Positions 47,277 to 59,460 of a stretch of DNA of 64,000 nucleotides are shown here, piece by piece. The notes under the pieces were generated by a model. The model worked only from the letters and a program-made list of their open reading frames with translations. It was not told where the DNA came from and ran no database searches. A program made the translations under genes and the position numbers. Where the stretch lies: NCBI GenBank assembly GCA_903919975.1, contig CAIXKE010000014.1:62001-126000 (forward strand). Reading direction: 5' to 3'. The stretch's first letter is position 1, and each line of letters begins with the position of its first letter. Origin of the DNA: Akkermansiaceae bacterium. GTDB taxonomy: Bacteria > Verrucomicrobiota > Verrucomicrobiia > Verrucomicrobiales > Akkermansiaceae.

Positions 47277-48113
47277 ATGAAGACCCTGTGGAAATCATTC
47301 CGACCTCTGGCCCCAAGCCACTGGATTCGCAACCTGTGTCAAAACTTCTTATGGCTTGCGGGCGGGGGGGCGTCAGCGGCGTTGATCCTGATTTCCTGCG
47401 CCACGACCGGTCGCACAATGATGGCTCCACCGAGCATCCCGGGTGCCACCTTCGTGGGCTCGGAAGAATGTTCACAGTGCCACGAAAAAACCGTCCGCGA
47501 CTTCAAAACCGCCGATCACGCCAAACTTCAGGCCAAGGGAGCGAACGCCAAGGACATGGGCTGTGAATCCTGCCACGGACCGGGTAGCAAGCACGTCGAA
47601 GCCGGCGGCGGCGCCGGAACCATCGTCAATCCCAAGAAGTCTTCAGAAACATGCTTCCAGTGCCACTTGGATACCAAAGCGCAGTTCAGCATGCCCTACG
47701 CCCACCAGGTGCTGAACGGCAAGATGTCCTGCTCGGATTGCCATGATCCGCACAAGGGTTCTGCCCACAAGGGCGGCGGAACGTCTATCGCACGTGCCAA
47801 TGAAACCTGCATGCAGTGCCACACCGCACAGGCTGGTCCGTTTGTCTTCCCGCATGAGGCGACCCGTGAAGGATGCGTTTCCTGCCACAGCCCGCACGGC
47901 TCCACGAACCAAAAGATGCTCACCGAGCGCAACTCCAACCTGTGCCTCAAGTGTCACTTCCAACAACAGCCTGGAGCGGCTCCGACCGATTCTATCATGA
48001 TTGGAGCTCCCAGTGCGCACACCTCAAGCAGGCTGATGGGCGGCACATGCTGGTCCGCCGGCTGCCACGAAGGCGTCCATGGATCTAACGTCAATAGCCA
48101 CCTTCGCAACTAA
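47277..48113 (+). CDS. Multiheme c-type cytochrome with lipobox, MtrA/DmsE-like
   Basis: 278 residues. A long N terminus ends in a hydrophobic stretch and lipobox (ASAALILISC), so it is probably an exported lipoprotein. Seven canonical heme motifs follow: CSQCH, CESCH, CFQCH, CSDCH, CMQCH, CVSCH and CLKCH. An eighth, CWSAGCH, has four residues between the Cys, as in some cytochromes c3. Spacing and neighbours suggest the MtrA/DmsE type, the periplasmic partner of an outer-membrane porin. The next gene, 20 bp away, encodes such a barrel. MtrA itself has ten hemes. Confidence 0.9.
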   Translation: MKTLWKSFRPLAPSHWIRNLCQNFLWLAGGGASAALILISCATTGRTMMAPPSIPGATFVGSEECSQCHEKTVRDFKTADHAKLQAKGANAKDMGCESCHGPGSKHVEAGGGAGTIVNPKKSSETCFQCHLDTKAQFSMPYAHQVLNGKMSCSDCHDPHKGSAHKGGGTSIARANETCMQCHTAQAGPFVFPHEATREGCVSCHSPHGSTNQKMLTERNSNLCLKCHFQQQPGAAPTDSIMIGAPSAHTSSRLMGGTCWSAGCHEGVHGSNVNSHLRN

Positions 48114-48133
48114 CCCTGAAAAACCTCACTACC

Positions 48134-50305
48134 ATGAAACGCAAGCATTTCAAAGGAATCACCGGATTTGTCACTACCATTCGGATCGGTTGTGCCGCGG
48201 GGATCGGCATGATGACCTCTCAAATCCAAGCCGGCACCCCGGCACCTACTCCAGCCGAGGCGGAAGTTGAAGTTTCCGCCAACTGGGTGGACTTCACCGT
48301 AGGCGGGGCATCCACCAGTGGCGATCAGGCCGCCTACCAGCGCCGGGTCGGCCAGGATGGCGACTTTTACGGCGGCATCAGCGACATGCACTGGGAACAG
48401 GAAAGTAATGACATCACCTGGACGCTCGATGGCCACGCAATGTTCGGCAACGAGGATTATGAAGCCATTCTTGGCGCGCAAAAAGAGGGGCTTGGATATA
48501 TCAAAGCGGGCTACAACCAGTTCCGGACTTGGTACGACGGCTCCGGTGGCTACGTTCCCGTGACTGATGGATGGTTCTCGAATGATGATGAGCTTTCAGT
48601 CGACCGTGGAGAAGTTTGGTTCGAGGCGGGGCTTCGCATGGAGGATTTGCCGGAAATTACCTTCAACTACAGCCATCGTTGGCGCGATGGCGAGAAGGAT
48701 TCCACTTCATGGGGTCAGAGTGGTAGTTATAAAATCGCTCCTTCGCTCAATGTGATTGACGAGGAGACCGACACCTTCACGCTCGATATCACCCACACCC
48801 TTGGCAATACGGATTTGGGTTTGGGTCTGCGTTATATGAGCGTCAATAATGAGGATAGCCGCATTATGGGATCGGGAGTGTCTCCCACTAACTCCGGGGC
48901 GGGTAACACCGTCGAGGATACTGCGGTTTATGATTCCAACTTGTTCAATGCGCACATGTTCAGCGAAAGTCGTTTCGGTGAACGGGTGCTCGCCAGCTTC
49001 GGCTACTCCTACACCAACCTCGATACCGATGTGAGCGGTGACCGCCCATCGCGTGACAACACCACCAATATTCTTGAAACAGGGGCCGACCACGCCTCAT
49101 GGGGGATGACAGGAGGTTCTCAGGCGCAGATTCACGTGCTAAATGCCAACCTGTGGTGGAATCCAGTGGACGATCTGGTGATCGTGCCGTCGCTTCGCGC
49201 GGAGTTTTGGGATCAGAGCGCCGAGACATGGCACCTTGCTGGTGTTCGTAGCAGGAACGTCAGTGGGGACGCCGACCAAGCGGTTGAGGATGCCCTGAAT
49301 GGCATCTTCCCGGCCGATGGTTCACCCAACGAAGGACGTCTTGAAGAAGTTCATGATTCGAGCGGCAACCAATGGGAGGAGTTTACCGAAGCCCTTGAGG
49401 TTCGCTACAGCGGTTTGGAAAATGTGCTCGCATACGCTAATGCCGAATGGACTCAGAGCGAGGGCGACTATTCCCGCGAGACGACCGGGGACTTCCATAC
49501 GGTGCCGGAGACTGTCGAAGTATCACATCGCAGGACGGACTCCGATCTTGATATCCAGAAATACACAATTGGTGCCAATTGGTATCCCCTACGCGGACTC
49601 AGTTTCTCCGCGCAGGCATATTACAAGAGTTATGAGCAGGACTTGGATTTTGATATCGAGGATGATGACGCGCAGATCAGCAATCACAACAACGAAACGA
49701 ACGATATCAATCTCCGCATGACCTGGAGGGCGTTGCCTAATCTGACGTTTGTGACTCGATATGACTATCAGCAGACAGATATCAAAACCCGGGGTGTCAA
49801 TGCAAATCCCGTGGAAGGAGAGACCACTTTAAAAATCGTCGAAAGCGCAGACATCGAGAGCAACATCATCAGCCAGAGTGTGACTTGGATGCCATTGGAG
49901 CAAATGTATGTCCAAGGGGTCTTTAGTTATGTGATGTCAGAAACCGACACGCCATCGGACAAATATGCGCCGCAACGAATCGAGGACTCAGACAATGATT
50001 ACGTGATGGCCAACCTGACCGTTGGCTACGCCCTTGATCGGAAGACCGAGATCACAGCTGGCTACTCATTCTACTACTCGGAGAATTATGACATTCCGTA
50101 TGCGACAAACGGGACCCCGGGTTCTGTCGGATTCGGCACGGATCTTGAAGAGCACGTGTTCAGCGTCTCGCTCACCCGTCAGATTAATCCGAACATGGTC
50201 TGGAACATGGGCTACGGATATTATAATAGCAATGACGGCAATTTTGGCGGAAACAACAGCTTTGACGCTCACATGGTGTCAACTGGCTTGCAAGTTCGCT
50301 TCTGA
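48134..50305 (+). CDS. Large outer-membrane beta-barrel, MtrB/PioB-like porin
   Basis: 723 residues with a signal peptide (to about residue 33, TSQIQAG) and alternating short strands with Tyr/Trp/Asp-rich loops throughout. It ends VSTGLQVRF, the terminal aromatic residue expected of outer-membrane barrels. Size and pairing with a multiheme cytochrome fit the MtrB/PioB or Geobacter OmbB type, which sheath a cytochrome wire through the outer membrane. The N-terminal CXXC reported for MtrB is absent; no cysteine remains in the mature protein. Family placement is by context and architecture rather than by a diagnostic motif. Confidence 0.8.
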   Translation: MKRKHFKGITGFVTTIRIGCAAGIGMMTSQIQAGTPAPTPAEAEVEVSANWVDFTVGGASTSGDQAAYQRRVGQDGDFYGGISDMHWEQESNDITWTLDGHAMFGNEDYEAILGAQKEGLGYIKAGYNQFRTWYDGSGGYVPVTDGWFSNDDELSVDRGEVWFEAGLRMEDLPEITFNYSHRWRDGEKDSTSWGQSGSYKIAPSLNVIDEETDTFTLDITHTLGNTDLGLGLRYMSVNNEDSRIMGSGVSPTNSGAGNTVEDTAVYDSNLFNAHMFSESRFGERVLASFGYSYTNLDTDVSGDRPSRDNTTNILETGADHASWGMTGGSQAQIHVLNANLWWNPVDDLVIVPSLRAEFWDQSAETWHLAGVRSRNVSGDADQAVEDALNGIFPADGSPNEGRLEEVHDSSGNQWEEFTEALEVRYSGLENVLAYANAEWTQSEGDYSRETTGDFHTVPETVEVSHRRTDSDLDIQKYTIGANWYPLRGLSFSAQAYYKSYEQDLDFDIEDDDAQISNHNNETNDINLRMTWRALPNLTFVTRYDYQQTDIKTRGVNANPVEGETTLKIVESADIESNIISQSVTWMPLEQMYVQGVFSYVMSETDTPSDKYAPQRIEDSDNDYVMANLTVGYALDRKTEITAGYSFYYSENYDIPYATNGTPGSVGFGTDLEEHVFSVSLTRQINPNMVWNMGYGYYNSNDGNFGGNNSFDAHMVSTGLQVRF

Positions 50306-50350
50306 TCTGCCATAAACAATCGTCGTTTCCTAAATCAAACCAATCAAAAC

Positions 50351-50674
50351 ATGAAACTCCACATCACACTTCTCTCGGTCGCCGCGCTGCTGGCCAGTCC
50401 AGCCGCCTTCGGTGATGCCGCCGCCCTCTACGGAAAAAGCTGCGCCTCCTGCCACGGCAAGGACGGCAAGGGCGACACCAAGATGGGCAAGAAAGCCGGT
50501 GCCAAGGATTACACCACCGCAGAAGGCCAGAAGTGGTCGGATGCCGAGGGCGTCAAGGCGATCCTTGAAGGCGTCAAGGACGGCGATAAACAGAAGATGA
50601 AAGGGTTCACCGGCAAGGTCACCGAGGCTGAAGCCAAAGAACTGGTGACTTACATCCGCACCTTTAAGAAATAA
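50351..50674 (+). CDS. Small periplasmic monoheme cytochrome c
   Basis: Class I cytochrome c, 107 residues. A signal peptide (MKLHITLLSVAALLASPAAFG) precedes the heme motif CASCHGKDGKGD near residue 35. A Met axial ligand is probably in QKMKGF, and the C-terminal helix AEAKELVTYIRTFKK is typical. It would carry electrons across the periplasm between the membrane cytochrome encoded downstream and the porin-cytochrome pair. A terminator follows. Confidence 0.93.
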   Translation: MKLHITLLSVAALLASPAAFGDAAALYGKSCASCHGKDGKGDTKMGKKAGAKDYTTAEGQKWSDAEGVKAILEGVKDGDKQKMKGFTGKVTEAEAKELVTYIRTFKK

Positions 50675-50723
50675 AAATTCGTATCCATCCGGTGTCGATC
50701 ACTCGCTGCAGGATCGAATTCAC

Positions 50724-50756
50724 GGCGGGGCCTCGGCGACGGGGTCCCGCCTTTTT
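50724..50756 (+). terminator. Rho-independent terminator after the small cytochrome
   Basis: Stem GGCGGGGCC (50724-50732) with GGTCCCGCC (50743-50751), one G-T pair, followed by TTTTT. It divides the locus into a first unit (multiheme cytochrome, barrel, monoheme cytochrome) and a second starting with the NapC-like gene. Confidence 0.85.
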
Positions 50757-50788
50757 GAAATATCAACAACCCACGACTTTCTAACAAC

Positions 50789-52285
50789 ATGATTGAAGAT
50801 CAACCTGCTATATCATCTTCCAGCCGCTTCAATCGCCTGCGCAACTGGCTCAGTCTAGCTGGCATGGTGCTGTGTGTATCGGCGGCATTTGCCTTTATTC
50901 TGTTATTTGCGGTGGACTTGTTCGCGACCCACGCAAATCCTTACATGGGTATTTTGGCCTATGTGGTGGCGCCGATGTTCTTTTTCATGGGCCTGGCACT
51001 GGTGCTCGGGGGTTACTTTCTTGAGTCGCGGAGAATTCGCAAAGGGGTGCCTCGCAAGGAGAATGCGTTCGTGCTCAATGTGGATCTTTCCCGCAAGCGC
51101 GACCGGCGCCTCATGGTTGGCTTCGTGGGCGGTAGTCTTGGATTCCTTATGCTGACGGCCTTCGGCAGCTACGAGACCTATCACCTGATGGAGACCAATT
51201 CCTTTTGCGGCGAAACCTGTCACACGCCGATGGAACCCGAATACAAGGCATATCAGCATTCTGCGCACGCCCAAGTGGATTGTGTGGCCTGCCACATCGG
51301 GCCCGGCACCACCGCCTACATCCGCACCAAGCTCAATGGGGTAAAGCAGATGTATCACCAGATCCTCGGCGATTATGACCGACCGATCCAGATTCTCAAT
51401 CCGAACTTGCGCTTGGCCCAAGAGACCTGCCAGACCTGTCACTGGTCGCAGAAACATTTCGGCGATGTGCCGAAAACCTTCCGGCATTACCTCGCCGATG
51501 AGGAAAACACTCCGTTCACCGTTCACATGATTCTCAAGGTGGGCGGCAGCGATCCGGTGCACGGTCCGGTCGAGGGGATTCACTCGCACATGAATGTCTC
51601 CAATAAAATAGAGTTCATTTCGCTAGATGAGCACCGTGAGGAAATCCCCTGGGTGCGTGTGACCGATGCCAACGGAAAGTCCACCGAATATCGCACCGAG
51701 AAATTCACGGATGATATCTCGAAGCACGTGATCCGGACGATGGACTGCATGGATTGCCATAACCGTCCGGCACATAAATTCCTCTCGCCCAACGATGCGG
51801 TGGACCAAGCCATGGCCATGGGTCGCATCGATGTATCCATTCCCTGGGCCAAGTCGAACATCGTCAAAGCTTTGGCCGCGCCGTATTCCACCCGCGAGGA
51901 GGCACAGCAGAAGATCGCGGAATCCCTGCGCGCCGAGTATAAGGATGACAAACGTGTGGACAGCTTGGTGGCCGAAGTTGGTAAGATTTATGCAACCAAC
52001 TTTTTCCCGGAGATGAAAGCCGATTGGCGTGCCCATCCGGACCACATCGGCCACAAGGACAACAATGGTTGTTTCCGTTGTCATGACGGCATGCACATGG
52101 CTTCCGATGGCAAGACCTCGATCAAAGGCAGCGATTGCAATGCCTGTCACCTGATTGTGGCCCAAGGCGCGGGTGAGGAGTTGGAAAAGGTTAACCGAAA
52201 GGGCTTCGACTTCTTCCACGTCGATTCGGAATATTCGGAGCCTAACTGTGCGGAATGTCACAACGGCGAGATTCAGAAGGAGTGA
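50789..52285 (+). CDS. Membrane-anchored heptaheme NapC/NirT-like cytochrome
   Basis: Probable quinol-oxidising cytochrome. Hydrophobic segments at about residues 21-46, 53-77 and 108-128 anchor it in the inner membrane. The first heme motif is CGETCHTPM, with three residues between the Cys; the HxPM context is that of NapC/NirT-type proteins. Six canonical motifs follow: CVACHIGPG, CQTCH, CMDCH, CFRCH, CNACH and CAECH. 498 residues, longer than NrfH or NapC (about 150-200), with a large periplasmic domain. It lies after a terminator and so starts its own transcript. Confidence 0.9.
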   Translation: MIEDQPAISSSSRFNRLRNWLSLAGMVLCVSAAFAFILLFAVDLFATHANPYMGILAYVVAPMFFFMGLALVLGGYFLESRRIRKGVPRKENAFVLNVDLSRKRDRRLMVGFVGGSLGFLMLTAFGSYETYHLMETNSFCGETCHTPMEPEYKAYQHSAHAQVDCVACHIGPGTTAYIRTKLNGVKQMYHQILGDYDRPIQILNPNLRLAQETCQTCHWSQKHFGDVPKTFRHYLADEENTPFTVHMILKVGGSDPVHGPVEGIHSHMNVSNKIEFISLDEHREEIPWVRVTDANGKSTEYRTEKFTDDISKHVIRTMDCMDCHNRPAHKFLSPNDAVDQAMAMGRIDVSIPWAKSNIVKALAAPYSTREEAQQKIAESLRAEYKDDKRVDSLVAEVGKIYATNFFPEMKADWRAHPDHIGHKDNNGCFRCHDGMHMASDGKTSIKGSDCNACHLIVAQGAGEELEKVNRKGFDFFHVDSEYSEPNCAECHNGEIQKE

Positions 52286-52369
52286 GACTCTGAATTTCCG
52301 GTCTTTTCTTGCTGGGGAATTGACGGTTCGTCGTCTGGCGTGAAGCATGCGTTCGTTAAGTGCCCCATC

Positions 52370-53593
52370 ATGAAACCCACGCTGCTTTCCATCGGATTTT
52401 TCGCCCTTGCCCTGACCTCCTGCAAGCAGGACAAGGAGATCAAAGTTTACCGCGTTGCCAAGGAGGCGTCGCCTGCTGGTCCATCGGCGGAAGCCGGTGA
52501 TCCGCATGCGGGTGTGCCCGGCATGATGCCGGGTGGCGTAATGGGTGGCGTAATGGGTGGAGCGGCAGGTGGAGCAGCGACTGGTGCGGACCCTCATGCC
52601 GGTTTGACTGCGGAACAACTTGCGGCGGCAGGAACCGCCATGCCTCCGAGCCAAGGGTATTCGGACACCCCCCCGGCCCACTGGAAGAAGCAGCCACCGT
52701 CAGCCATGCTGCTGGTGAAATACCAAATCCAGGGTGAGGGCGGTGCTGTGGTGGATGTGACTTTCTCGACTCTCCGCAGCTCCCCAGGCGGACTGCTCGC
52801 AAACATCAACCGCTGGCGAGATCAACTCAATCAACCGGCTTTTGACGAGGCATCGTTGAAACAAAACACACGGACAGTGCAATCGGGTTTTGGAGATGCG
52901 GTTTTTGTGGAAATCGAAGGACTCACACCGACTGCGGATGCCGCAAAGGATGGCCGCCTCATCGGCGCCATCGCCGAGGTGGGCGCGAGCGCATGGTTCT
53001 TCAAGCTCCGTGGCAATGCGGCTCTCGCCACGGCGGAGAAAGAGAATTTCCTGCGCTGGATCGAGTCCGTAAAGCCCGCCGCGCCCGCGGAAGCCTCCAA
53101 GGTGCCGATGCACGGCACGCCGCCCGGGGAACAAATCGCAGCACCACCGGCATCCCCCGCCGCCCCGCTGGGAGACGGCTCGGTCACTTGGCAAATGCCC
53201 GATGGATGGGCCGCAGCCAAGGGCAGTTCGGCCCGTTACGCAACGCTTGCCGTCACCGGTGCGGATGGCTCGAAAGGCGAACTCGCCATCACCCATTTCC
53301 CCGGCGACGTCGGCGGCGATCTTGCCAACGTCAACCGCTGGCGCGGACAAATCGGCCTCGCGCCCATCGACGAAGCTGCGCTCGCGCCATCCGTCACGCA
53401 AATCACCGCCGGTCCCAAGAGCATCAAAGTGATTGATGCCACCGGCCCGCAAAACCGTTGTGCCGCCGGCTGGGTAGCTCATGGCGGGGAGACCTGGTTC
53501 TTCAAATTCACCGGACCCGACGCCTTGGTCGGTGCGGAAAAGGCGAAGTTCACCGCGTTTCTGGAATCCATCCGCTTTACCAAGCCCGAATGA
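52370..53593 (+). CDS. Lipoprotein with an internally duplicated domain, function unknown
   Basis: Not recognised. The ATG chosen gives MKPTLLSIGFFALALTSCKQ with lipobox LTSC. A Gly/Met/Ala-rich linker follows (residues ~50-85). Two copies of one ~120-residue domain come next. Copy 1 (from PPAHWKKQPPSAML) has GGLLANINRWRDQL and ends GASAWFFKLRGN. Copy 2 (from VTWQMPDGWAAA) has GDLANVNRWRGQIGL and ends GGETWFFKFTGP. Shared features are the NINRWR/NVNRWR motif and W-FFK. No cysteine pair or heme motif is present. Its stop overlaps the start of the ResB gene, so it belongs to the same unit. Confidence 0.88.
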   Translation: MKPTLLSIGFFALALTSCKQDKEIKVYRVAKEASPAGPSAEAGDPHAGVPGMMPGGVMGGVMGGAAGGAATGADPHAGLTAEQLAAAGTAMPPSQGYSDTPPAHWKKQPPSAMLLVKYQIQGEGGAVVDVTFSTLRSSPGGLLANINRWRDQLNQPAFDEASLKQNTRTVQSGFGDAVFVEIEGLTPTADAAKDGRLIGAIAEVGASAWFFKLRGNAALATAEKENFLRWIESVKPAAPAEASKVPMHGTPPGEQIAAPPASPAAPLGDGSVTWQMPDGWAAAKGSSARYATLAVTGADGSKGELAITHFPGDVGGDLANVNRWRGQIGLAPIDEAALAPSVTQITAGPKSIKVIDATGPQNRCAAGWVAHGGETWFFKFTGPDALVGAEKAKFTAFLESIRFTKPE

Positions 53594-54759
53594 TGAGTGC
53601 CCTCCGTCGAATTCTGGACCCAGTTTGTTCGCTGCGTCTCACCCTGTTCTGCCTCGCCGCCGCCCTCGTGCTGGTTTTCGCCGGGACACTGGCGCAGGTC
53701 CGCTTCGGGCTCTATCTGGTGCAGGAAGAATATTTCCAAAGCTGGTTCATCTGGTGGACCGCGCCATCCGGGAATCTCATGCTGCCGGTTTTTCCCGGCG
53801 GTCACCTGATCGGAGCGGTGCTGTTAATCAACCTCGTCTCCGCGCACATCCGGCGTTTCAGTTGGACTTGGAAAAAACTCGGCATTCAGCTCACCCATCT
53901 GGGTCTCATCATCATGCTGGCCGGCGGGCTGGCCACCGATCTGTTTTCAGTGCACAGCTACATGCGCATCAAGGAAGGTGCCACCAGCAACTACTCGGAA
54001 GACAGCATGAATATGGAGCTGGCGGTGATCGATCGGACAGAAGCTGACACCGAACAAGTGACCGCCGTGCCGGGCGAAGTGCTGGCGGATGGCGGTGCCA
54101 TCAACCATGAGTCGCTCCCATTCCGCATGGAAGTGCGCGGATTCTATCGGAACTCGAAACTTCAGATGATCGGAGAGGGTGCCAGCTCGGTCCCGGCATC
54201 CACCAAGGGAACCGGAGCGCGGGTCGCCGTGGCCGCGAAACCCCGCGCCACCCGCATGGACGAGCGGGATTCAATGAGCGCCGTGCTCGAGATTATTTCC
54301 GTCAAGGGCGGTGAGTCGCTCGGCACCTGGCTGGTCTCGGACTCACTGGCCGCCGCCCAGGAATTCGAAGCGGACGGCCGCAAATGGAGCATCCAGCTCA
54401 GGCCTTCCCGTTATTACAAGCCATACAGCCTGTCCTTGCAGGACTTTACTCACGAAACCTATCCCGGTACGCAGATTCCGAAAAATTTCTCTAGCAAGGT
54501 CAACCTCGTGGACCTCGACATGAAGGACAGCCGCCAAGTGCTCATCTACATGAACCATCCGCTGCGCTATCGGGGCGATACCTACTATCAGTCCGGTTTC
54601 GAGCCTGACAATAGCGGCACGGTGTTGCAGGTCGTGCGCAATCCGAGCTATCAGGCGCCCTATGTCGCCTGTGTGATCGTTTCGCTGGGACTTATCTATC
54701 AATTCGCCTTCCATCTCGTCGGATTCTCCCGCCGTAAAAAAGCCGCCACCACCTCATGA
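53590..54759 (+). CDS. ResB/CcsB-like cytochrome c maturation protein
   Basis: System II heme-handling protein that works with CcsA. It starts at ATG 53590 overlapping the previous stop. 389 residues: TM segments at about 14-36, 64-84 and 97-118, a periplasmic domain of ~240 residues, and a last TM near 360-382. ResB-type sequence includes SLRLTLFCLAAALVLVFAGTL and MKDSRQVLIYMNHPLRYRGDTYYQSG. Together with the overlapping ccsA gene it would attach heme to the cytochromes of this locus. Confidence 0.85.
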   Translation: MMSALRRILDPVCSLRLTLFCLAAALVLVFAGTLAQVRFGLYLVQEEYFQSWFIWWTAPSGNLMLPVFPGGHLIGAVLLINLVSAHIRRFSWTWKKLGIQLTHLGLIIMLAGGLATDLFSVHSYMRIKEGATSNYSEDSMNMELAVIDRTEADTEQVTAVPGEVLADGGAINHESLPFRMEVRGFYRNSKLQMIGEGASSVPASTKGTGARVAVAAKPRATRMDERDSMSAVLEIISVKGGESLGTWLVSDSLAAAQEFEADGRKWSIQLRPSRYYKPYSLSLQDFTHETYPGTQIPKNFSSKVNLVDLDMKDSRQVLIYMNHPLRYRGDTYYQSGFEPDNSGTVLQVVRNPSYQAPYVACVIVSLGLIYQFAFHLVGFSRRKKAATTS

Positions 54760-56645
54760 ACCGATTTATTCCCTATCTTGTCCTGCTGGTCGCCGCCTTG
54801 TGGATCGGTTCTTCTTGGATGTATCCCAAGGCCGGCCCCGGAGAATTCGACCTCACATCCTTCAATCGCATTCCGGTGCTCGCCGGCGGCCGTATCAAAC
54901 CGTTTGACACTGTTGCGCGCAATTCCCTCCTCATTCTGAGCGGCAAACAAACCGTGCGCCTATCCGAGGGCGGAAAACTAAGCGCCTCACACTGGCTGGC
55001 CGATGTTTTATTCAACCCCAAGAAAGCCGACAGCTATCCGGTGTTCGCCGTCGCCAATCAGGAAGTGCTCGGCATGTTCGGTTGGCCGCAGATGGACAAG
55101 AAGTATTGCACCTACGAGGAGCTCAGGCAGCACATCCCCAAGATCGACGAGGAGGGCAAACTCGTGCAGGAAATCGAAGCCCCGAAGCGCACGCCATTCC
55201 ATACGGCTATCTTCAACCTCCGCAATTCGCTCTATCTCTATCAACGGCTGAAAAGCAGCATTCATGAAGAAGGCACCGTTGATTTCGGCAAAGAAATCGA
55301 GACCTACGCCGCAGCCGTGGCCGCAGGGGCTGAGACTTTGAAGGCGGGTTCCGCGCCGCTCGATAAGGAGCGCATGGCATTGCTCAGGTCTGCGGCGGCC
55401 CGTTATGAAAACCAGTCGCAATTCTCCTATTTGATGGTCGTGGCACCACCCGCCGGCGGCAAGGAAGGCGACTGGCTCACCACCGGTGCGGCCTTGATGC
55501 GGGTGAAATCCCCGGACAAAATTCCGGCATCAGTCGCCGCGCTGGCGGACATGGGGGACGCTTTCCGCGCCAACAATCCCGCGGCTTTCTCGAAAGTGAC
55601 GCGCGAATACGCGGGCTTGCTCAACATCGAGCATCCGGAGTGGGTGGGCCGCACCTCCTACGAGCTGCGCTTCAATCAGATGCAGCCGTTCTATCACAGT
55701 ATGGTGCTTTACGTCGGAGCATTTCTGTTAGCATGCATCTCATGGCTCTGTTGTCCGCGCGGCTTGCGTAAATCCGCCTTCTTGCTGCTCATGCTCGCGC
55801 TGGTGGTGCATTCATTCGGCATGTTCTCGCGCATGTATCTGCAAGGCCGACCACCAGTCACCAATCTCTACTCTTCCGCGATCTTCGTCGGTTGGGGCGC
55901 GGTGGTGCTGGGCTTGGTGTTGGAGCGACTGTTCCGCGATGGTATCGGTGCCGCCAGTGCCGGCATGGTTGGATTCATCACGCTGATCATCGCGCATCAC
56001 TTGGGTTCCAGTGGCGACACGCTGGAAATGATGCAGGCGGTTCTTGATAGCAATATCTGGCTCGCCACTCACGTCGTGATCATTACCGCCGGATACTCCG
56101 CTATGTTTTTGGCTGGTTTCTTGGCCATCGCCTATGTGGTGCTGGGGCTTTTCACCCGCCTTCTCACGCGTGAGACCGCTCAAAAACTCACGGGTATGGT
56201 GTATGGCATCGTTTGTTTCGCCACCTTGTTCAGCTTCGTCGGCACGGTGCTCGGTGGTATCTGGGCGGACCAATCGTGGGGCCGCTTCTGGGGCTGGGAT
56301 CCCAAGGAAAACGGCGCATTGCTCATCGTGTTGTGGTGCGCTCTCATCCTTCACGCCCGCTGGGGCGGATTCATCCGTCAGCGCGGCATCATGGCCATGG
56401 CGATCATCGGCAATGCGATCACTGCGTTTTCATGGTTCGGAGTAAACATGCTGGGCGTCGGCCTTCATTCCTATGGATTCATGGACAAGGCGTTTCCATG
56501 GTTGTTGGGTTTTGTCATCTCGCAGTTTGTGCTGATGCTGCTCACCCGCCTTCCCGCCAATCTCTGGCGCAGTTTTTGCAATGCACCACCAAAGGACGTA
56601 AAAGCCGCTGGATTTTTAGCGGATTCGGCACCGGTCGCCCATTAG
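54756..56645 (+). CDS. ccsA: CcsA-type cytochrome c synthase subunit
   Basis: System II heme lyase. 629 residues, with an N-terminal TM and a ~300-residue extracytoplasmic part (RIPVLAGGRIKPFDTVARNS, as in CcsBA-type proteins) before the CcsA membrane core. The heme-binding WWD domain reads WADQSWGRFWGWDPKEN (about residues 505-521). Conserved His residues lie in flanking segments (MYVLHSFGMF-like VVHSFGMFSRMY; GVGLHSYGF). It overlaps the ResB gene by 4 bp. Placement beside cytochromes with unusual heme motifs suggests a dedicated enzyme. Confidence 0.92.
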   Translation: MNRFIPYLVLLVAALWIGSSWMYPKAGPGEFDLTSFNRIPVLAGGRIKPFDTVARNSLLILSGKQTVRLSEGGKLSASHWLADVLFNPKKADSYPVFAVANQEVLGMFGWPQMDKKYCTYEELRQHIPKIDEEGKLVQEIEAPKRTPFHTAIFNLRNSLYLYQRLKSSIHEEGTVDFGKEIETYAAAVAAGAETLKAGSAPLDKERMALLRSAAARYENQSQFSYLMVVAPPAGGKEGDWLTTGAALMRVKSPDKIPASVAALADMGDAFRANNPAAFSKVTREYAGLLNIEHPEWVGRTSYELRFNQMQPFYHSMVLYVGAFLLACISWLCCPRGLRKSAFLLLMLALVVHSFGMFSRMYLQGRPPVTNLYSSAIFVGWGAVVLGLVLERLFRDGIGAASAGMVGFITLIIAHHLGSSGDTLEMMQAVLDSNIWLATHVVIITAGYSAMFLAGFLAIAYVVLGLFTRLLTRETAQKLTGMVYGIVCFATLFSFVGTVLGGIWADQSWGRFWGWDPKENGALLIVLWCALILHARWGGFIRQRGIMAMAIIGNAITAFSWFGVNMLGVGLHSYGFMDKAFPWLLGFVISQFVLMLLTRLPANLWRSFCNAPPKDVKAAGFLADSAPVAH

Positions 56646-58749: not shown

Positions 58750-59460
58750 CTATTCATCGTCTGTTATGATCTCGATGGGTTTCGCTCCAAACTTGGGAGT
58801 TCCAAAAATCCCAATGTCGTCGGTCCCATAAACCCGAGAGGTATTGCCGTCACGCTCGATGACCGCTTCCGGTTTTGCCCCCAAGTTGGGAGTTCCAAAC
58901 ATCCCAATCTCTTTGGCACCATAAACCCTGGAGGTATTGCCATCGCGTTCGATGACCGCTGTGGGTTTTGCCCCCAAATTGGGAGTTCCAAATATCCCGA
59001 CGTCTTTAGACCCATAAATGCGAGACGTATTGCCCTGATGTTGAATCACACCAGCTGGCTTCGCGCCCAAATTGGGAGTTCCAAATATCCCGATATTTTC
59101 AGCTCCGTAGATACGAGATGTATCACCATCGCGCTCAATCACTGCCTCGGGTTTGGCCCCCAAAAAAGGAGTTCCAAAAATTCCGATATTCTTACCGCCA
59201 TAAATCCGGGATGTGTCACCATCACGCTCAATCACAGCCGCTGGCTTCGATCCAAGATTAGGAGTTCCGAAAATCCCGATGTCATCAGATCCATAGACGC
59301 GGGAAGAATGATCACCGCCACCATAACCACGTAATTGGCTGGGTCCCAGGCTGTATGCGCCGACGGCGGGCGTGTGGTATGATCCATAGTCTTGATAAAA
59401 GCAGGACACATTCGTCACAAGAATCATGATTCCCATGGAGAGGTTTCTGAAAATTTTCAT
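58750..59460 (-). CDS. Lipoprotein made of six 31-residue repeats
   Basis: Family not recognised. A signal peptide with lipobox (ILVTNVSC) opens the protein. After a ~35-residue Tyr/Gly-rich segment come five full units and a shorter sixth (it lacks the ERDGNTSRVYG part). Each unit contains IGIFGTPNLGAKP, AVIERDGNTSR and VYG. They are nearly identical: the first, second and fifth differ mostly at two or three positions. The regular 31-residue period with Gly/Ile/Asn pattern suggests a stacked beta structure such as a solenoid, or a small propeller. 236 residues. It lies in a group of small envelope genes, 34 bp from the next on the same strand. Confidence 0.9.
   Translation of the reverse strand: MKIFRNLSMGIMILVTNVSCFYQDYGSYHTPAVGAYSLGPSQLRGYGGGDHSSRVYGSDDIGIFGTPNLGSKPAAVIERDGDTSRIYGGKNIGIFGTPFLGAKPEAVIERDGDTSRIYGAENIGIFGTPNLGAKPAGVIQHQGNTSRIYGSKDVGIFGTPNLGAKPTAVIERDGNTSRVYGAKEIGMFGTPNLGAKPEAVIERDGNTSRVYGTDDIGIFGTPKFGAKPIEIITDDE
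58790..59320 (-). repeat. 93-bp tandem repeats inside the lipoprotein gene
   Basis: GGAGTTCCAAA recurs about every 93 bp (for example near 58797, 58890, 58983, 59076, 59169 and 59262), which is the DNA form of the 31-residue protein repeat. Unit sequences differ by point changes rather than indels, so the array is in frame throughout. Confidence 0.85.

Follow-up and report, generated by a model that had tools for sequence, protein, structure and literature searches.

A likely trans-outer-membrane porin-cytochrome conduit with linked heme-attachment genes in an Akkermansiaceae bacterium

Do the cytochrome genes clustered at positions 47277-56645 of a 64,000-nucleotide stretch of an Akkermansiaceae bacterium genome (GCA_903919975.1, contig CAIXKE010000014.1, positions 62,001 to 126,000; the whole stretch is called the window) encode a path for electrons across the outer membrane? 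A first-pass annotation had listed an octaheme cytochrome, a barrel, a monoheme cytochrome, a terminator, a heptaheme cytochrome, a lipoprotein, ResB and CcsA, in that order, and had read them as a transmembrane electron conduit with its own heme-attachment system. When the locus was re-analyzed, the same order was recovered at the same positions, with all genes on the plus strand. A conduit with linked heme-attachment genes is very probably present, given the homology of the octaheme protein to MtrA, the MtrB-like barrel and the constant adjacency of their genes. The reading that we consider likely as a whole is a trans-outer-membrane porin-cytochrome conduit, in which an ImcH-like protein oxidizes quinol, a monoheme cytochrome relays the electrons, and an octaheme cytochrome within the barrel delivers them outward to an extracellular acceptor. 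The features of the locus are as follows (lengths in amino acids, aa; TM, transmembrane helix; AF2, AlphaFold2).

47277..48113, plus strand: octaheme c-type cytochrome, probable outer-membrane-anchored lipoprotein, 278 aa (motif count, phmmer match to MtrA, alignment with decahemes)
48134..50305, plus strand: MtrB-like outer-membrane beta-barrel, 723 aa (26 strands in the AF2 model, PDB structure match, profile comparison)
50351..50674, plus strand: monoheme c-type cytochrome, Cytochrome_CBB3/c553-like, with signal peptide, 107 aa (Pfam PF13442, E 1.1e-11)
50724..50751, plus strand: intrinsic-terminator-like hairpin (12-bp stem with 10 G-C pairs, then TTTTT)
50789..52285, plus strand: ImcH-like inner-membrane heptaheme cytochrome, 498 aa, 3 TM, CX3CH + 6 CX2CH (Cytochrom_NNT PF03264, E 4.1e-13)
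about 52370..53593, plus strand: duplicated-domain lipoprotein (alignment with invariant lipobox Cys and repeated NxNRWR blocks)
about 53590..54759, plus strand: ResB, System II cytochrome c maturation (PF05140, E 2.4e-20); the mechanical open reading frame start at 53458 is too early
54756..56645, plus strand: CcsA/CcsB-type heme-attachment protein, 629 aa (PF01578, E 5.3e-23; TIGR03144, E 2e-36, under the equivalog cut-off)

The octaheme protein carries seven CX2CH motifs and one CX4CH motif (CWSAGCH, the last), and the count of eight made in the first pass stands once the widened motif is included. This 7 + 1 pattern was common to all 20 aligned homologues, in which the lipobox cysteine (Cys41) was also invariant; a lipid anchor is probable from the sequence. 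When phmmer was used, residues 61-272 matched chain 6r2q_A of the Shewanella baltica MtrCAB complex in two stretches with an E-value of 2.2e-27 (the molecule name of this chain in the PDB file is a mislabel; the chain is MtrA). The profile search proposed in the first pass thus found homology at scores under the curated cut-offs, namely 161.9 bits against the DmsE/MtrA model TIGR03508 (cut-off 192.2) and 171.4 bits against the GSU2203 decaheme model NF041028 (cut-off 325), and the protein falls short of the ten motifs of the TIGR03508 decaheme family. Eight decahemes of other phyla were aligned with it; its hemes correspond to decaheme positions 1, 2, 5, 6, 7, 8, 9 and 10, so that it lacks hemes 3 and 4, and it has the wider CX4CH at motif 10. 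By sequence comparison, the protein is an MtrA homologue with an internal two-heme deletion: the homology is clear and it lies outside the curated decaheme family.

The barrel resembles MtrB in its modelled structure. MtrB has 26 strands (PMC7198977), and so does the AF2 model of the barrel (mean predicted local distance difference test score, pLDDT, 69.9; many core strands >85). Two further features of the model, short first strands and a helix of low confidence separating strand 1 from strand 2, also agree with the description of MtrB. MtrB (6r2q_B) was the top PDB structural match by Foldseek (E 1.6e-11) and again ranked first by VIA-align (Z 17.0 with 525 residues aligned; next chain Z 13.7). 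When the barrel profile was compared with barrels adjoining decahemes in other phyla, E-values of 6e-21 over 606 columns and 1.8e-18 over 565 were obtained, and both of these sets hold one protein above the MtrB_PioB cut-off. An unrelated porin of the same genome, used as negative control, gave a probability of 2.4%. Neither the barrel sequence nor its profile found a relative among PDB sequences, the sole match being a weak one to Intimin (E 1.7). The barrel is thus modelled with an MtrB-like fold, and common ancestry with MtrB is probable.

The heptaheme protein had been labelled as of NapC/NirT type. It matches the Cytochrom_NNT domain family, and its architecture is that of ImcH and not of the tetraheme CymA. 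Its predicted TM are N-terminal (residues 24-42, 55-73 and 108-126) and its CX3CH motif reads CGETCH. ImcH is described as having three N-terminal TM, a CX3CH by the TM domain plus six CX2CH, and about 495-519 aa (PMC6295460). Assigned by this published description, the heptaheme protein fits ImcH better than CymA, which was dropped as the closest type on TM number and heme count, CymA being tetraheme. It is probably the quinol oxidase of the system, and the monoheme cytochrome is probably a periplasmic carrier. An ImcH survey of 2018 counted one verrucomicrobial homologue and no mtrAB or mtoAB adjoining imcH (PMC6295460). We found ImcH-type genes near MtrA-type genes with barrels in the window locus, in Opitutus terrae, on an Omnitrophota contig (L107) and in the Acidobacteriota loci L113 and L139. 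Decaheme, barrel and ImcH-type genes also lie close together in L113, L139, L117 and L122 (Acidobacteriota and others), an arrangement absent from the report of the 2018 survey.

How widely the gene set recurs, a question left by the first-pass annotation, was examined in 388 evenly sampled Verrucomicrobiota genomes. The barrel was present in 22 of them (16 genera), and 20 loci were fetched as segments of about 19 kb, within which gene counts are lower bounds on presence. The octaheme gene was found directly upstream of the barrel on the same strand in 20/20 loci. A monoheme-family match was nearby in 17 and ImcH in 14, while the lipoprotein was seen in 8 and, with the threshold that was applied, ResB and CcsA were each seen in 5. 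The same gene order was observed in other genomes of the genus (octaheme, barrel and ImcH about 38-83% identical in protein sequence), which are Akkermansiaceae/Luteolibacter metagenome-assembled genomes, several apparently from lakes and ponds, and also in other families. A single-sequence scan of genome contigs with the barrel gave no match, and the octaheme alignment was used as query instead. Among 59 relatives, the barrel was found in 9 and ImcH in 10: ImcH was present in 9/9 barrel genomes versus 1/50 others. If the two were independent, the chance of such an overlap would be about 8e-10 (hand calculation), a value whose true weight is lowered by shared ancestry. Because of the adjacency in 20/20 loci and this co-occurrence, the locus is a conserved unit and not a chance grouping.

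The tenth ImcH genome (G016) has its octaheme gene with a different barrel. This locus (L100:8001-12996, Luteolibacter sp., matched to G016:C55 by contig coordinates) contains octaheme, monoheme and ImcH genes; all eight motifs of its octaheme protein are CX2CH, and its barrel is not clearly related to the other barrels (28% probability by hhalign), so barrel replacement is possible. In ten further loci of Limisphaerales/Pedosphaerales type (L087, L092, L093, L095-L099, L102 and L103), the octaheme-adjacent barrel carries an N-terminal monoheme domain, identified as PSCyt1 in the three barrels tested, which may replace the separate monoheme cytochrome. Among 80 loci, L107 (Candidatus Omnitrophota) is the only clearly non-verrucomicrobial case of a window-type barrel; it contains lipoprotein, ResB, CcsA, an octaheme gene with CX4CH, barrel and ImcH, and no monoheme gene was detected in it. 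Two octaheme-barrel pairs were observed within one locus in L076 and L084.

The heme-attachment genes claimed in the first pass are borne out by Pfam scores of 73.3 bits for ResB (cut-off 24.6) and 82.2 bits for CcsA (cut-off 29.9). The lipoprotein has two copies of a NxNRWR...WFFKxxG domain and no Pfam or NCBIfam match; it is conserved beside ResB/CcsA and is probably an accessory of cytochrome c maturation. A second ResB gene is found on contig C11 of the same genome; therefore the module is not the only one there. Its linkage suggests that it is dedicated to the conduit, and hypothetically it could handle the unusual CX3CH/CX4CH motifs. The hairpin at 50724-50751 was the strongest site in a terminator scan whose total number of sites was no higher than in shuffles. 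Because it lies between the monoheme and heptaheme genes, it suggests two likely operons, one for the conduit and monoheme carrier and one for the inner-membrane cytochrome and heme attachment.

In the route that we propose, ImcH would oxidize quinol, probably menaquinol, in the inner membrane, and the electrons would cross the periplasm, probably on the monoheme cytochrome, to the octaheme lipoprotein. Seated inside the 26-strand barrel, this lipoprotein would conduct them across the outer membrane to an acceptor outside the cell, which may be humic substances, Fe(III)/Mn(IV) or a partner encoded outside the locus, and the lipoprotein-ResB-CcsA module would attach the heme. Gene content, MtrA homology, the MtrB-like fold, the ImcH-type architecture and conserved linkage come from sequence or model; from them we infer complex formation, carrier order, outward direction and acceptor. 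The locus had been said to supply each step from quinol to the cell surface; this goes further than the findings do, since no extracellular MtrC-like cytochrome was found at the locus, as had been noted.

Several points weigh against this route. Besides the lack of an extracellular cytochrome at the locus, a relative has a 9-heme partner of which no homologue was found in the source genome. The eight hemes may span a shorter distance than the ten of MtrA, and the AF2 model of the octaheme protein has a pLDDT of 31.5, so no structural claim is based on it. When the barrel was searched for MtrB/PioB profiles, as had been suggested, it scored 18.6 bits in a partial match to Pfam MtrB_PioB (PF11854), under the gathering cut-off of 23 and outside that curated family, and this family was not among its hmmscan matches at E<=1; yet structure and profile comparison point to MtrB. 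The N-terminal CXXC motif of Shewanella MtrB is absent from the barrel, whose translation has a single cysteine, located within the signal peptide. The genome also encodes terminal oxidases (three heme-copper oxidase genes), so electrons could also enter. A narrower version of the proposal seems doubtful to us: a minimal MtrAB-derived conduit with an ImcH/monoheme relay, a lipid-anchored short MtrA whose CX4CH heme would be the surface redox site, no extracellular cytochrome, and a dedicated lyase for CX3CH/CX4CH.

If the conduit ran inward, the electron donor would be extracellular Fe(II), reduced humic matter or another organism acting as partner, and the electrons would pass through the octaheme and monoheme cytochromes to an oxidase or, by reverse flow, to quinone. 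Inward flow is possible because of the three heme-copper oxidase genes and the lack of an extracellular cytochrome, the latter as in PioAB/MtoAB, and the monoheme gene adjoins the barrel gene, as such a route would have it. Against this stand the ImcH homologues, which have been reported from no bacteria other than Fe(III) reducers (PMC6295460), and RuBisCO, which was not found in the source genome and whose absence weakly disfavours lithotrophy. The same genome encodes, outside the locus, a CbcL-like protein in which nine heme motifs are combined with a cytochrome b561 domain (G000:C41; L163:7996-9741). Because of these three observations, we take flow outward, to humics or metals, as the likelier direction and regard inward flow as unlikely. 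The 11-13-heme proteins at some Opitutaceae-like loci were considered as extracellular partners and rejected, as they are CbcL-like (multiheme + cytochrome b561) and probably inner-membrane proteins.

Instead of general extracellular respiration, the octaheme-barrel pair could work for one particular reductase, extracellular or in the outer membrane, whose gene lies elsewhere, in the way that DmsEF supports DmsAB. The score against the DmsE family model would suit this, as would a Nap-like molybdoenzyme operon on another contig (C112), but that locus has NrfCD-like and tetraheme genes of its own, and among the loci with a detailed gene listing no reductase gene was recognized next to the pair; we consider such a role very unlikely. 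The operon-like group on C112 (L162:4158-10924) comprises a Nap-like molybdopterin oxidoreductase, two tetraheme proteins and NrfD and is possibly a separate periplasmic reductase. The first-pass annotation had named two findings that would count against a conduit, a soluble terminal reductase gene in the locus and a barrel whose porin family is unrelated and not associated with cytochromes; no reductase gene was found there, and the second outcome did not occur either. If the barrel were an ordinary porin or a TonB-like transporter and the cytochromes a neighbouring periplasmic electron-transfer set, this would agree with its score under the MtrB_PioB cut-off and with the many barrel structures at Z 12-13.7. 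MtrB stands clear of these at Z 17, though, and the octaheme-barrel adjacency across different species, the profile homology to decaheme-locus barrels with its negative control, and the monoheme domain fused to the barrel in related loci leave this explanation hardly credible.

Two repeats were observed apart from the locus. At 58750-59460 of the window, on the minus strand, a 236-aa secreted or lipoprotein-like protein contains repeats of about 30 residues (SRIYGxxxIGIFGTPNLGAKPxAVIERDG), and the source genome carries about a dozen tandem copies of the 9-mer TGTCACGGG at G000:C13:43341-43445.

Extracellular electron transfer has been characterized in few phyla. Here a verrucomicrobial system that also occurs, as homologues, in a cultured species, Opitutus terrae, is tied by homology to the MtrAB conduit and its likely quinol oxidase is named as ImcH, which makes the 2017 hypothesis on humic respiration in lakes and soils directly testable. 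That hypothesis comes from He et al. 2017, whose text reports Verrucomicrobia of humic lakes in which octaheme cytochromes are clustered with porins of 20 or more strands, with homologues in O. terrae PB90-1 and others, and proposes extracellular electron transfer by a system regarded there as not homologous to those of Shewanella and Geobacter (PMC5615132). The gene content, which the first pass did not recognize from a described system, is accordingly not unknown. With its octaheme gene clustered with a barrel of 26 modelled strands, the window locus shows the same combination of octaheme and large porin, and it belongs to the kind outlined in that text because the octaheme and barrel genes of the homologous O. 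terrae locus (G156/L054) are of the same families and are accompanied by ImcH, monoheme cytochrome, lipoprotein, ResB and CcsA. Some of the 2017 clusters are described with an extracellular cytochrome, whereas the window locus is without one. The text names neither ImcH nor a heme-attachment module, although parts of the gene order may be drawn in its figures (PMC5615132).

Like Shewanella MtrAB (MtrCAB) and PioAB/MtoAB, the window locus has MtrA homology and a 26-strand barrel best matching MtrB, and it shares the lack of MtrC with PioAB/MtoAB. It differs from MtrAB in having eight hemes and not ten (3-4 absent), a CX4CH last motif and a lipoprotein signal, in a barrel too divergent for MtrB_PioB, and in an ImcH-type quinol oxidase that replaces CymA. 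The Geobacter OmaB-OmbB-OmcB system (Pcc) with ImcH/CbcL has the same octaheme and porin combination, and both ImcH-like and CbcL-like cytochromes are found in the source genome. The porin-cytochromes of Geobacter lack homology to MtrABC according to their published description (PMC6344600), whereas the window octaheme is of MtrA/DmsE type. Compared with these systems, the new elements here are support for MtrAB ancestry, the identification of hemes 3 and 4 as those missing, the ImcH linkage with co-occurrence, the linked heme-attachment module and the barrel variants found elsewhere.

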